Positions 16,056 to 60,692 of a DNA stretch of 64,000 bases are shown here, one piece after another (the first letter of the stretch is position 1; every line of letters begins with the position of its first letter). Source of the DNA: Geobacter sp. AOG2 (GTDB lineage Bacteria > Desulfobacterota > Desulfuromonadia > Geobacterales > Pseudopelobacteraceae); contig NZ_BLJA01000001.1 of the NCBI RefSeq assembly GCF_019972295.1, positions 2,422,158-2,486,157 of the forward strand, given 5' to 3'. Both the position numbers and the translations under genes were made by a program. The notes beneath the pieces are model-generated. The model was given only the letters and a program-made list of their open reading frames with translations, was not told where the DNA came from and searched no databases.

Positions 16056-17261
16056 ATGTCCATAGCAACCATAGAAGAAGCAATCGAGGATATCCGGCAG
16101 GGAAAGATAGTCATCTTGGCCGATGATGAAGACCGTGAGAATGAGGGCGATCTGACCATGGCGGCAGAGGCGGTTACTCCCGAGACTATCAATTTTATGG
16201 CCAAATACGGGCGAGGCCTGATCTGTCTGACCATGACGGCCGAAAAATGCGACGACCTCAATCTGCGGCCGATGGTACGGGATAACACCTCGCCGTTTGA
16301 AACCGCTTTCACCATTTCCATCGAGGCGAAACATGGGGTTACCACCGGCATCTCGGCCGCCGACCGGGCTCACACCATCCTGACCGCCGTCGCTGATAGC
16401 GCGACCCCGGACGACTTGGTCAGCCCCGGCCATATCTTTCCCCTGCGTGCCCGCAAGGGGGGAGTTCTGGTCCGGTCGGGACAAACCGAAGGGTCAGTGG
16501 ATCTGGCGCGTTTGGCTGGGTTGCGGCCGGCCGGGGTCATCTGCGAGATCATGAATGACGATGGCACCATGGCGCGCATGCCCGAATTGAAGAAGTTCGC
16601 AAAAGAGCATGGAATCAAGATCTGTACCGTGGCCGACCTGGTCGCCTATCGGCTGCGGCACGAACGTCTCGTGCGCACCGTGGCCGAGGCCCACCTCCCG
16701 TCGGCTTACGGCGGCGAATGGCGGGCCATTGCCTTTGAAAACGATGTGGACAAGCTGGATCACCTTGCCTTGGTCAAGGGGGAGTTTGCAAAGGGTGAAT
16801 CCGTATTGGTCCGGGTCCACTCGGAGTGTCTGACCGGCGATGTTTTGGGTAGCCAACGCTGCGACTGCGGGGAACAACTGCACCGAGCCATGGAAATGAT
16901 CGCTCGGGAGGGGAAAGGGGTGATCCTCTACATGCGCCAGGAGGGGCGCGGCATCGGCCTAATCAACAAGCTCCGGGCCTATGAGTTGCAAGACCGGGGC
17001 CGCGACACGGTGGAAGCCAATCTGGAACTTGGTTTCAAGGCCGATCTGAGGGATTACGGCATTGGGGCGCAGATCCTGTTGGCCCTGGGGATCACAAAGA
17101 TCCGTCTCCTGACCAACAACCCCAAGAAGCTCATCGGGTTGCAGGGCTATGGCATCGATATCGTGGAGCGGGTCGCCATTGAGGCGGTCGCCACGGAGAA
17201 CAACCGCAAGTACCTCAAGACCAAACAAACCAAACTGGGGCACCTGCTGAAAAACATCTGA
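16056..17261 (+). CDS. ribBA: Bifunctional DHBP synthase / GTP cyclohydrolase II
   Basis: Makes both precursors of lumazine: 3,4-dihydroxybutanone 4-phosphate (N-terminal half) and the pyrimidine from GTP (C-terminal half). The 401-aa protein has the DHBP signature [11 protein letters not shown] and [10 protein letters not shown] in the first ~200 residues. The cyclohydrolase half has the zinc ligands [19 protein letters not shown] and the RQEGRGIGL loop. It is the last gene of the operon; 24 bases later a convergent gene ends. In many relatives ribH and nusB follow here, but they are absent. Confidence 0.96.
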
Positions 17262-17285
17262 CGTCCGTCAAAGTTTACGAGAAAG

Positions 17286-18266
17286 TTACCGGACCAACTG
17301 CGATACCGGAACCAGGGTTATCCCCTGGCCAGCCAGGGCCGGCAATGTTTCGACCAGAGTTGCAATCGTTGCCGGGTGGGGATGGCAAATAGCAATGGCA
17401 GTGCCGTTTTTCTTTGCCATCCGCACCGCTTGGGCCAACTGTCCGCGAATGTAGGCGCCGTTTTGCTCGTTGTCGAGAAACACGTTCCGCTTTGCCGTCT
17501 TTACCCCCATCTCACGGGCCAGACGCGCCCCAACCGTCCGGGGTGTCGTTACGCTGTCGATGAAGAACAGCCCCTTCCCTTTCAACTCCTCCAGCACCAC
17601 CCTCATCTTGTCCTCATGCTCGGTGAATTCGGACCCCATGTGGTTATTGACGCCAATGGCCGTAGGAATCTCGCGCGTATATTCGCCGAGATGTTCACGG
17701 ATAGCGGCATCATCCATTGATGTCAATAGTCCGTTGGCTTCCAACCTGCGCTGAGGCCACCCCTTGGACTGCATGGGGATATGGATCATCGTCTCGATAC
17801 CGGAACGGGCGGCAAAGCCGGCCACATCCCGGTCGCTATGCAGCCCCGGAATGATGGAAAAGGTCAGGGGGAGCCCAATGCCCGCCAACGCGCGGGCTTC
17901 CTGCAGGGTGCTCCCCATGTCGTCGATGATGATCGCCAACTTTCCTTGAACACCGGCCGGGCTGATTGCCGGTTTATTGTCTTCTTCCTTGGAAGTGGTT
18001 TCGTGGGGATATTGCGCTTCACCTGTGACCGATACTCCGGGCTGCGGAGCGACAGGCGATGCGGGACGGCCCGCCTCCGGGATCGGAGTGGGCGAGAGAT
18101 TCGCGGCGTTCCGGGAAGGTTGTGGGGGCGAGGGGGGATTACCCCGGGGGGACATTATGAAATAGAGGCCAACAGCAAGCAGGATCGTGGCCAGGAGGGC
18201 CACTGCTGCGATACGGCTGCCGCCGCCCGACCTCTGTTTATATCTCTTGTTACGGGGTTTGGTCAC
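17286..18266 (-). CDS. Divergent polysaccharide deacetylase family protein (YibQ/DUF610)
   Basis: The 326-aa protein has an N-terminal membrane anchor (about residues 19-40), a Pro/Ser-rich linker to about residue 105, and then a deacetylase-like barrel starting KLAIIIDDMGSTLQEARAL. Later motifs include IHIPMQSKGWPQRRLEANGL, GVNNHMGSEFTE and AICHPHPATIATL, typical of the divergent polysaccharide deacetylase family. It probably acts in the periplasm on cell-wall or surface polysaccharide, but no substrate can be named. The start appears to be GTG 18266 with a weak ribosome-binding site. It lies downstream of the ftsEX-envC-ctpA genes, a common arrangement that suggests a link to envelope turnover. 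Confidence 0.85.
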   Translation of the reverse strand: MTKPRNKRYKQRSGGGSRIAAVALLATILLAVGLYFIMSPRGNPPSPPQPSRNAANLSPTPIPEAGRPASPVAPQPGVSVTGEAQYPHETTSKEEDNKPAISPAGVQGKLAIIIDDMGSTLQEARALAGIGLPLTFSIIPGLHSDRDVAGFAARSGIETMIHIPMQSKGWPQRRLEANGLLTSMDDAAIREHLGEYTREIPTAIGVNNHMGSEFTEHEDKMRVVLEELKGKGLFFIDSVTTPRTVGARLAREMGVKTAKRNVFLDNEQNGAYIRGQLAQAVRMAKKNGTAIAICHPHPATIATLVETLPALAGQGITLVPVSQLVR

Positions 18267-58117: not shown

Positions 58118-59167
58118 TTAGGCTTTTTGGGCAACGGCCTTCTTGGTCGGACCATTCCTGCGGATTGCGGTCGCAAACTCCATCCAGAACACCAGGTAGA
58201 TGGACACCATCAGAGAGAGACCGATATTCTGGTTCTCCGCTCCGAGAGCCTTGGCCAGGATAGGCGACGCAAAACCGGCTCCCAGGTTTCCGGTGGCCCG
58301 TTCCAGCAAATAGAAGACCGGCAGCGTCAGCATGGTGCCGACCACCATGATGGCGATACCGGTGGGGCGCTTGACCCAGTATTTGGGGGAGAATCCGTAC
58401 ATGCGCATGAAGATGACCACCCAGATAATCCAGACCGAGTAATCCACAGCTGCGTCGGGCAGGGCCAGCTTGTTCTTCACCAAGGCGATCTCCAGGACCG
58501 TCACAATCCCCAGCATGGTGAACATCCAGTTGAACTTCTCGTTGGCTTGAGTCTGCCAGTTGCGACTATCCGGGGCCTGCACCTCGTTGGACGAGTGACC
58601 GTGGGTGCCTAGGGCCGAAAAGAGGATAGCGAACCATATGCCTGCATTGTGGAACAAGAGCGAAGCATGGTTGCCGGCCACATTGGCGATGCGGGACATG
58701 GGGTCGCGGGCAAAATCCGCAGCGATGCGCATCAGGAACAGGTTGGCAACCACGGAGCAGCCGATGATGACCGCTATGGTAAAGATTCTGCGGGGTAAAA
58801 GATAGGGATCAACCCGGTCAGGAAAACCTATGATGAAGGCGAACCAGATCAGGTACATAATCAACGGTATGCCGAAACATATGCCGTACACCGACTTGCC
58901 GGCAAAGTCGCCGCTCTGGGCGTAGATGATGTACTTTTCCTTCGTGTTGGGATCGGTGTTGGCCGCCTTGACCACATCCTTAGGCACTTTCTTGACATGG
59001 GGCAGAAGTCCCATGGCATACCAGCCATGATCGCCCTGAGTCGTATCGACGACCCAGTACTGGTCGCCCATCATATCGTCCAAGCCCGAGAATATCTGCA
59101 TATTGAAGGCGGCGCACACAACGCAGACCACCAGCAGCAGAATAGCGTGAGAGATTTTCATCGGCAT
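58118..59167 (-). CDS. Uncharacterised polytopic membrane protein
   Basis: I do not recognise this 349-aa protein. It has about eight membrane helices (roughly residues 7-25, 95-115, 127-147, 168-188, 215-235, 245-262, 272-295, 318-338) and a soluble loop at 26-90. Conserved-looking His and charged residues lie near FPDRVDPYLLPRR, GNHASLLFHNAG and GTHGHSSNEVQAPD. ATG 59167 follows GGAGGAATAGAGTC. It is the last gene of a four-gene unit with two very small membrane proteins and a Cys-rich protein. The His pairs in helices could bind heme or metal, but no known cytochrome b pattern is clear. Confidence 0.85.
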   Translation of the reverse strand: MPMKISHAILLLVVCVVCAAFNMQIFSGLDDMMGDQYWVVDTTQGDHGWYAMGLLPHVKKVPKDVVKAANTDPNTKEKYIIYAQSGDFAGKSVYGICFGIPLIMYLIWFAFIIGFPDRVDPYLLPRRIFTIAVIIGCSVVANLFLMRIAADFARDPMSRIANVAGNHASLLFHNAGIWFAILFSALGTHGHSSNEVQAPDSRNWQTQANEKFNWMFTMLGIVTVLEIALVKNKLALPDAAVDYSVWIIWVVIFMRMYGFSPKYWVKRPTGIAIMVVGTMLTLPVFYLLERATGNLGAGFASPILAKALGAENQNIGLSLMVSIYLVFWMEFATAIRRNGPTKKAVAQKA

Positions 59168-59188: not shown

Positions 59189-59440
59189 TTATTCTTTATG
59201 GGTTGTCCAGAACATCGACACGGCATTGGCCGCAAACAGGCCGTAGAGCCACATGGTGTTCCAGGCCGGACCGGACCAGTGGCTACCATGCCCACCACCC
59301 ACAACCCCGGAGGCAATCACGAATCCGATCATGGTCGTAAAGGACACCATGGCGACCGCTCTCAAGATGGCACTGTTACGCCAAGTGTGACGTTCCAGCT
59401 CCTCGATCCGCGACAATAACTCAAGCTCTCTTTCGCTCAT
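59189..59440 (-). CDS. Small two-helix membrane protein
   Basis: From ATG 59440 (AGGAG seven bases upstream) the product is 83 aa, MSERELELLSRIEELERH at its start: a short coiled coil, then two membrane helices (about residues 24-46 and 58-77) separated by a Gly/His loop (GGGHGSHWSG). No family recognised. It overlaps the upstream 40-aa gene by 20 bases and ends 21 bases before the eight-helix protein, so it is likely a small subunit of the same complex. Confidence 0.8.
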   Translation of the reverse strand: MSERELELLSRIEELERHTWRNSAILRAVAMVSFTTMIGFVIASGVVGGGHGSHWSGPAWNTMWLYGLFAANAVSMFWTTHKE

Positions 59441-59582: not shown

Positions 59583-59774
59583 TCAGCACTTGATCAGGTG
59601 AACCTGTTCGTCGGGAAAACGGTCGGCCAGTTCCAGGTACTTCATGCAGTCGGCATACCGGCCGCTACAGTAACGGATGATCATGTTCACGTCATGGGGC
59701 GAGATATAACCGCACCCCACGTCGCAGTAATCATCGTTTTTTCCGTAGAATGGACAGACTGTTGTTTTTCTCAT
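59583..59774 (-). CDS. Small Cys-rich protein
   Basis: From ATG 59774 (GAGGAAATTA upstream) the 63-aa soluble protein is MRKTTVCPFYGKNDDYCDV at its start and has six Cys (7, 17, 21, 36, 43, 63). The spacing C-x9-C-x3-C ... C-x6-C suggests a zinc or iron-sulfur site. An in-frame ATG at 59786 has no ribosome-binding site. No signal peptide. It is the first gene of the four-gene unit and could be a metal or redox sensor for it (inference). Confidence 0.75.
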   Translation of the reverse strand: MRKTTVCPFYGKNDDYCDVGCGYISPHDVNMIIRYCSGRYADCMKYLELADRFPDEQVHLIKC

Positions 59775-59808
59775 TAATTTCCTCATTTATCGCATTCGAT
59801 TATCTATA

Positions 59809-59823
59809 GGCATATGATATGCC
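59809..59823. promoter_or_regulatory. 15-base dyad upstream of the Cys-rich gene
   Basis: Perfect inverted repeat GGCATAT-G-ATATGCC, 35 bases upstream of the ATG at 59774. On the minus strand it also contains GG-N10-GC, the spacing of a sigma-54 promoter, but the flanks match poorly, so an operator is the simpler reading. Confidence 0.4.
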
Positions 59824-59910
59824 AATTCGGATTAAAGAATTATTATCGCTATAATTACAGTAACTTAAACCACAAACAACGACTTCCGCTCCGTTGGTAG
59901 CGGTTCGTTC

Positions 59911-59926
59911 TTTGCACTAATGCAAA
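59911..59926. promoter_or_regulatory. Palindrome copy 1, TTTGCA-N4-TGCAAA
   Basis: TTTGCA-CTAA-TGCAAA, centred 145 bases from the second copy. The TTG-N8-CAA geometry is that of CRP/FNR-family sites, with core TTGCA in place of the FNR TTGAT. It is placed to act on the minus-strand operon. Confidence 0.55.
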
Positions 59927-60055
59927 AACCAGCGGCCGACCGTCAGCGGCACGAAAGCCTGAGACGCGTCAATAAAGGCTTTTAAAAACTTTAAAATATT
60001 TTTAAACCATCATTGTTTCAATATGTTAGTTGTGGTATGGATGGAAACAGCGCCG

Positions 60056-60071
60056 TTTGCAAAAGTGCAAA
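60056..60071. promoter_or_regulatory. Palindrome copy 2, TTTGCA-N4-TGCAAA
   Basis: TTTGCA-AAAG-TGCAAA, centred 33 bases before the third copy, about three DNA turns, so two dimers could bind on the same face. Confidence 0.55.
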
Positions 60072-60088
60072 ATAGCGTTAGGGTATCT

Positions 60089-60104
60089 TTTGCAGAAATG
60101 CAAA
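60089..60104. promoter_or_regulatory. Palindrome copy 3, TTTGCA-N4-TGCAAA
   Basis: TTTGCA-GAAA-TGCAAA, ending just before a further TTGCAA half site and the ribosome-binding site at 60109-60118. A protein bound here would block the methyltransferase gene, so repression is the likely outcome. Confidence 0.55.
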
Positions 60105-60119: not shown

Positions 60120-60692
60120 GTGGAGGCTGATCGAATTAAGTGGAACGAACGCTTCGGGGCGGAGGGGGCTTTTTTGGGAGAACGCCCCTCCCCTTTTCTG
60201 GCTCGAGAGATTGAGCGCATCCTGCGCCTTGCGCCGGGCAGGCGGGCGCTGGATGTGGCCTGCGGCGAGGGCCGCAACAGCATCTTCCTGGCCCGCCACG
60301 GGTTCCGGACGTCCGGCCTGGACATCTCGGACGTGGGGATCGCCAAGGCCGAACGCTTGGCGCATGCGGAGGCATTGGAAATCGACTTCCACCAGGTTGA
60401 CCTGGAAAACTGCCGGATCGCGGGACAGTACGACCTGATCATCAACTTCAACTTTCTGCTGCGCAGCCTCATCCCTGAGGAGGTCGGCGCCCTGGCACCG
60501 GGAGGACTCCTGCTGTTCGACACCATACTGGAGTCGCCCCAGCTTTTGGTCACCCACAACCCGGATTTTTTCCTGCGTTATGGCGAGTTGGAGAGAATAT
60601 TTGCGGTCTTCAATGGTGAGGTGCTCTTTAGTGAGGAGGACAGGGAGGGAGAGATGCCCACGGCGCGATTGCTGTACAGGAAGGCGGACTAA
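60120..60692 (+). CDS. Class I SAM-dependent methyltransferase (TehB-like)
   Basis: The start is GTG 60120 after the ideal ribosome-binding site AAGGAGGTGA, giving 190 aa. A longer frame to 60030 runs through the palindromes and is rejected. The SAM motif is LDVACGEGRNSIFLARHG, followed by an acidic GLDISDVGIAKAERLA strand. Motif II is QYDLIINFNFLLRSLIPE and motif III is LAPGGLLLFDTI. This matches the TehB-like branch, some members of which methylate or detoxify oxyanions such as tellurite. The substrate here is unknown. A strong terminator follows. Confidence 0.87.
   Translation: MEADRIKWNERFGAEGAFLGERPSPFLAREIERILRLAPGRRALDVACGEGRNSIFLARHGFRTSGLDISDVGIAKAERLAHAEALEIDFHQVDLENCRIAGQYDLIINFNFLLRSLIPEEVGALAPGGLLLFDTILESPQLLVTHNPDFFLRYGELERIFAVFNGEVLFSEEDREGEMPTARLLYRKAD

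Follow-up and report, generated by a model that had tools for sequence, protein, structure and literature searches.

A predicted sigma-54-dependent two-component switch resembling LurSR, most likely for monocarboxylate uptake, in the Geobacter order

In the DctBD system, a Cache-type sensor kinase and an NtrC-type regulator activate a carboxylate transporter (C4-dicarboxylate uptake) from paired upstream sites. Two further sigma-54-dependent systems have been described in other bacteria. In LurSR of Desulfovibrio, three 16-bp sites at positions -389, -350 and -250 lie above a sigma-54 promoter at -136; lactate permeases are targets, the regulator is encoded beside the operon, and the sites are conserved in the order (PMC6456213, PMC3333781). 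AtoSC of E. coli mediates a sigma-54-dependent response to short-chain acids (acetoacetate and short-chain fatty acids; PMC3118216). Sigma-54 promoters also operate in the Geobacter group, where passages of a study of the G. sulfurreducens RpoN regulon include the fumarate/succinate exchanger dcuB among the genes so controlled (PMC2725144).

In this work, comparative genomics was applied to three palindromes in a divergent control region of Geobacter sp. AOG2. The locus is most likely part of a LurSR-like sigma-54-dependent two-component switch for monocarboxylate uptake in the Geobacter order, as judged from its sequence and that of its relatives. LurSR, likewise a two-component system with a sigma-54 response regulator, appears to be the nearest described system and to share the same design, but its sites are GTCCGCTTTTTCAGAC-like rather than TTTGCA-N4-TGCAAA, and its target operon serves lactate oxidation; the 16-bp LurR site GTCC(G/A)CTTTTTCAGAC (PMC6456213) differs in sequence from the site described here. 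AtoC and AtoS are the best NCBIfam matches of the regulator and kinase core, with scores far below the equivalog cut-offs (NF008469 and NF008468; 441.5 of 714 and 249.7 of 646, respectively). The AtoC site GCTATGCAGAAATTTGCACA (PMC3118216) also has TGCA half-sites, but they are 6 bases apart versus 4 here, and no ato operon is among the targets found. DctBD has the same combination of a Cache-type sensor kinase and an NtrC-type regulator for a carboxylate transporter, and structure comparison returned DctD receiver structures among the matches, whereas the targets here are monocarboxylate transporters. The passages of the RpoN study considered here name neither YaaH nor enhancer sites like these, and the operon promoter may already be among the 110 promoters predicted in its supplement (PMC2725144). 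No prior description of the site, the regulator or the operon was found in the open-licence literature searched, supplements aside; the switch is of a known type, yet it seems undescribed.

The window, that is, the whole 64-kb stretch of DNA analysed, holds the following features.

60089..60104, no strand: predicted distal enhancer site 1, TTTGCAGAAATGCAAA, a perfect palindrome conserved in relatives.
60056..60071, no strand: predicted distal enhancer site 2, TTTGCAAAAGTGCAAA, a perfect palindrome 33 bp from site 1.
59911..59926, no strand: predicted proximal enhancer site 3, TTTGCACTAATGCAAA, a perfect palindrome, conserved, 145 bp from site 2.
59809..59824, minus strand: predicted sigma-54 -24/-12 promoter of the membrane operon, TGGCATATCATATGCC, with a GG-N10-GC core and 8/12 consensus positions.
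59583..59786, minus strand: cys67, a cysteine-rich protein of 67 aa, encoded by the operon's first gene and conserved with the operon.
59189..59440, minus strand: mp83, a small membrane protein, second gene of the operon, with one hydrophobic segment and 77-100% identity among relatives.
58118..59167, minus strand: mem349, a 349-aa protein, third gene of the operon, with about 8 hydrophobic segments (hydropathy) and 73-95% identity across the order.
60120..60692, plus strand: divergent gene for a TehB-like class I SAM methyltransferase of 190 aa, GTG start at 60120, with Pfam TehB and Methyltransf_25 above cut-off.

An earlier note on this DNA had reported three exact copies of TTTGCA-N4-TGCAAA, two of them 33 bases apart and one abutting the ribosome-binding site of the methyltransferase gene. 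All three are present; the starts of the distal pair (60056 and 60089) are indeed separated by 33 bases, and the 60089-60104 site stops 5 bp short of AGGAGG. The window contains no further perfect copy, as the note had also observed, and the next-best matches there carry 2 mismatches. The genome-wide search that it proposed (3,921,258 bp, one contig) returned six perfect copies, which are not scattered but fall three each into two promoter regions. The second cluster is located at C1:2611401, 2611503 and 2611525 (L007:7402, 7504 and 7526), and each cluster consists of a single site plus two neighbouring ones, which are separated by 33 bp in the window and by 22 bp in the second cluster. Under a first-order Markov model, 0.005 perfect copies are expected per 64 kb and 0.31 per 3.92 Mb; against this genome-wide expectation of 0.31, six copies in two clusters were found, and chance palindromes were rejected. 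The reversed control pattern has no match in the genome, and one-mismatch copies occur at 8 further places, in most of them with the symmetry broken. An intrinsic terminator or hairpin was considered and rejected: weak terminator-like stems occur within 59877-59947, none of them formed by the conserved palindromes.

Orthologous regions were compared in 80 named mem349 loci, nearly all from Geobacter relatives, in nearly all of which the gene string cys67 - mp83 - mem349 is kept. The layout was counted in the 77 loci with enough upstream sequence, the window included; sites were allowed up to 2 mismatches, and a sigma-54 element was scored at 9 or more of 12 consensus positions, 60-190 bp downstream of a site. 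The palindromes are conserved in these regions. A site with a downstream sigma-54-like element of at least 9/12 was found in 69 of the 77 loci, compared with 4.9% of random stretches from the same loci. Two or three sites occur in most loci, and 60 loci have exactly three. In most loci 29-33 bp separate the two distal sites, with 33 bp the commonest value (23/61 loci); the proximal site mostly follows 123-139 bp downstream of the pair, and the sigma-54 promoter lies mostly 88-116 bp below the proximal site, most commonly at 102 bp. The promoter in the window, located exactly 102 bp from site 3, aligns with TGGCACATCCTGTGCG of the sister species; taken alone it is a weak match, because only 8 of 12 positions agree, and it is its position and alignment that make it convincing. 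Thus, as in a bEBP regulon, a -24/-12 (GG-N10-GC) promoter lies downstream of several palindromic sites placed more than 80 bp above it, and the layout is that of predicted enhancer sites for an NtrC-type activator.

At many operon loci a protein of about 460 aa with a GAFTGA motif is encoded, and these proteins, bar two unrelated matches, belong to one orthologue group (67-100% identity). In 33 of the 80 loci the bEBP gene adjoins the operon, its most frequent position being immediately upstream of the sites, and this linked regulator has an AAA+ sigma-54 domain, a GAFTGA loop and a Fis-type HTH. The orthologue in the window's own genome (464 aa, G000:C1:1129712-1131100; L128:7707-9101) shares 79% identity with the query, versus 44% for the next paralogue, and contains the domains Response_reg PF00072, Sigma54_activat PF00158 and Fis-type HTH PF02954, with GAFTGA at residue 220. 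One in-frame TGA occurs in the regulator gene of two genomes from a single genus (G070:C5:178103-179479 and G077:C224:8362-9738).

The histidine kinase gene L128:9155-11113, with dCache_2/sCache_2, HAMP, HisKA and HATPase domains, is located immediately before the regulator gene, and the two genes stay paired in every locus examined that has enough sequence. In genome G086, the gene for the histidine kinase is preceded, at about 65 bp, by a perfect site (L148:7421), which hints at autoregulation of the pair. Tandem chemoreceptor-like genes (L128:14545-16203 and 16242-17903), whose C-terminal halves are nearly identical, lie near the kinase-regulator pair.

Since the regulator gene is 1.35 Mb from the window's sites, the link between the two in this genome rests on orthology. 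The same enhancer architecture might instead be bound by another bEBP paralogue, given about 30 sigma-54-activator-like proteins in this genome, none of them encoded beside the sites. We consider this substitution very improbable: the group of the 464-aa orthologue alone adjoins the operon in relatives, and this group, the one followed for co-occurrence, tracks the presence and absence of the sites. Co-occurrence was analysed by counting perfect sites in 97 genomes and following this one group. On average, 2.5 perfect sites per genome were found with the bEBP and 0.5 without it; at least two sites occur in 62 of 76 genomes with the bEBP versus 1 of 21 without (Fisher p=9e-11, uncorrected for kinship, a value that overstates independence because the genomes are related). 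Genomes G060, G066 and G068 keep mem349 and have no bEBP, and the sites, the matching promoter and cys67 are absent as well. Their loci (L185, L186 and L187), in which mp83-mem349 stands without cys67, sites, sigma-54 promoter or regulator, are a natural rewiring; in G060 and G066 (L185 and L186) the remaining genes read as lying just behind the zinc-finger tail of a topoisomerase gene. Conversely, G122 and G294, which belong to a different family of the phylum, have mem349, cys67, an adjoining regulator and one near-perfect site. In five genomes the regulator is present and perfect sites are absent; the two examined, G013 and G019, carry degenerate sites.

These observations bear on the proposal of the earlier note that the palindromes belong to an uncharacterised CRP/FNR-family regulon. 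The TTG-N8-CAA geometry on which it was based is as described and, together with the 16-bp palindrome, matches the half-site spacing of CRP/FNR sites in outline, but it is not diagnostic of that family. The core was correctly described as unlike FNR and HcpR-type sites: among 207 collected sites with up to 2 mismatches, the half-site is TTTGCA rather than TGTGA, TTGAT or TTGAC, its G and C are (nearly) invariant, and the four central bases are free. CRP/FNR sites are usually close to a sigma-70 promoter, whereas the distance from the present sites down to a sigma-54 promoter is about 90-290 bp. The regulator followed here, which is linked to the sites and co-occurs with them, is a bEBP. Because of the downstream sigma-54 promoters, the bEBP linked to the operon in those 33 of 80 loci and the joint loss of sites and bEBP, the regulator is assigned to the NtrC family and the CRP/FNR reading is rejected; it is extremely improbable that a CRP/FNR-family protein recognises TTTGCA-N4-TGCAAA and controls both the methyltransferase and the membrane operon. 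What stands of the proposal is a small, uncharacterised regulon including the membrane operon, under an NtrC-family response regulator instead.

The methyltransferase, which had been thought to share the regulon with the membrane operon, drops out of it as a conserved target, since this gene (METHYLTRANSFERASE) occupies the divergent position in only 15 of the 80 orthologous loci and no sigma-54 promoter directed at it was found in the loci examined. In loci that have the gene, its start codon comes about 15-25 bp after one of the sites, so that a regulator bound there would form an obstacle and could hinder transcription of the gene. It was therefore considered whether the sites mainly serve the methyltransferase, as activator or repressor sites, with the membrane operon as a bystander. 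However, most of the 65 loci in which another gene is the divergent neighbour retain the layout of sites and promoter. A secondary repressive effect on the methyltransferase is possible. The methyltransferase was rejected as the main target, a role that is highly unlikely.

The second genomic cluster precedes a minus-strand gene for a 210-aa protein of the Gpr1/Fun34/YaaH family (L007:6616-7248), a YaaH/SatP protein scoring 138 bits against the acetate uptake transporter model AceTr_1 (NCBIfam; cut-off 50) and 121 against Pfam Gpr1_Fun34_YaaH (cut-off 25). The sigma-54 -24/-12 sequence TTGGTATGCTACTTGCT lies between these sites and the yaaH gene, and in five genomes the yaaH promoter regions align, sharing the three sites as well as a conserved promoter resembling TTGGTATG-N5-TTGCT. 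Eighteen genomes of the family hold 57 perfect sites in all. By our own tally, about 46 of these are found at the operon, another 5 at yaaH and 2 at an SfMCT-type transporter gene; the other 4 are orphans that seem to fall within coding sequence or at its edge. SfMCT-type genes follow mem349 on the same strand, at a distance of 21-102 bp, in 29 of the 80 loci; L153:5337-6698 scores 407.6 bits with the SfMCT L-lactate transporter model NF049980 (cut-off 320). Elsewhere (L149, L160, L162 and L166), such genes have their own site or sites and a sigma-54 promoter. In the window's own genome an SfMCT-type transporter is absent as a third target, the best match having 33% identity.

Other genes were noted near the sites. 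In G061 and G064, a perfect site (L163:3256 and L165:3037) is accompanied, at a distance of 31 bp, by a copy with one mismatch; these sites are flanked by a gene for an outer-membrane beta-barrel and a divergent gene of about 145 aa. No sigma-54 promoter was found there, and the sites mark a possible extra target. A fatty-acid CoA ligase-like gene upstream of the sites (L150:6304-7962 and L153:8893-10551) is present in 8 of the 80 loci at 55% identity or more and is a possible further functional link.

With high confidence, then, the palindromes are predicted to be upstream activating (enhancer) sites for an NtrC-family sigma-54 activator, the 464-aa regulator working with the dCache kinase, which would turn on the operon and yaaH. 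The predicted sites, promoter layout, regulator identity and target set are well supported; the phosphorylation, ligand, looping and membrane-protein function that complete the scheme are what we infer. The periplasmic Cache domain would bind a small monocarboxylate of the acetate, lactate or pyruvate class, and the kinase would then phosphorylate the response regulator. Dimers of the regulator, bound to the 16-bp palindromes, would join into an AAA+ hexamer, and a DNA loop would bring this hexamer to the sigma-54 RNA polymerase waiting at the -24/-12 promoter, some 100 bp downstream of the closest site. Opening of the promoter through ATP hydrolysis would switch on cys67-mp83-mem349, in many relatives along with the SfMCT-type transporter of the same gene string, and a second promoter of the same design would switch on the acetate transporter YaaH/SatP.

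The proposed ligand derives from the target transporters and from distant Cache structures. Solved relatives of the dCache_2 domain of the kinase include 4k08, with bound acetate, and 4exo, with pyruvate modelled (PMC3831638); the authors of 4k08 note that its acetate may stem from the crystallisation buffer and thus be an artefact (PMC3831638). Taken together, the acetate- and lactate-type targets and the Cache relatives make a monocarboxylate the likely signal. The regulator and the sites could be right and the signal nevertheless something else, such as a dicarboxylate, redox state or starvation, with mem349 outside transport. This would fit with the indirect assignment of both ligand and mem349 function, with the AlphaFold prediction for mem349 (mean pLDDT 46, too poor for a fold search) and with a cys67 that lacks a known family. 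We regard it as rather unlikely, given that those co-targets to which a name can be put are transporters of the acetate and lactate type, and that the Cache domain is similar to others that bind carboxylates.

None of cys67, mp83 and mem349 matches a Pfam or NCBIfam family above cut-off. The cys67 family, of about 65 aa, has the conserved pattern CPFYGK..D.YCDVGCGYISP.DVN.IIRYC. Genome G086 carries a lone cys67 paralogue (L149:6719-6910) with its own site and sigma-54 promoter, and therefore cys67 looks like a separate member of the regulon. The mem349 protein shares 95% identity with that of the nearest named relative, Oryzomonas japonica, and under a monocarboxylate-responsive switch it is probably tied to carboxylate transport by this shared control. 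More tentatively, cys67-mp83-mem349 might be a new, nearly order-specific system for monocarboxylate uptake or uptake-linked sensing, and the Cache kinase and bEBP might be the Geobacterales intake switch for acetate-type electron donors.

Acetate and related acids are main electron donors of Geobacter relatives in sediments, in bioremediation and on electrodes. The predicted circuit is complete and testable, from sensor kinase and regulator to exact DNA sites, promoters and targets, and it offers a first functional lead for the family-less membrane protein mem349, which was found in 79 of the 97 genomes searched (relatives and own genome). The Geobacter order thus probably possesses a regulon in which acetate- and lactate-type uptake genes are placed under a sensor-controlled activator.
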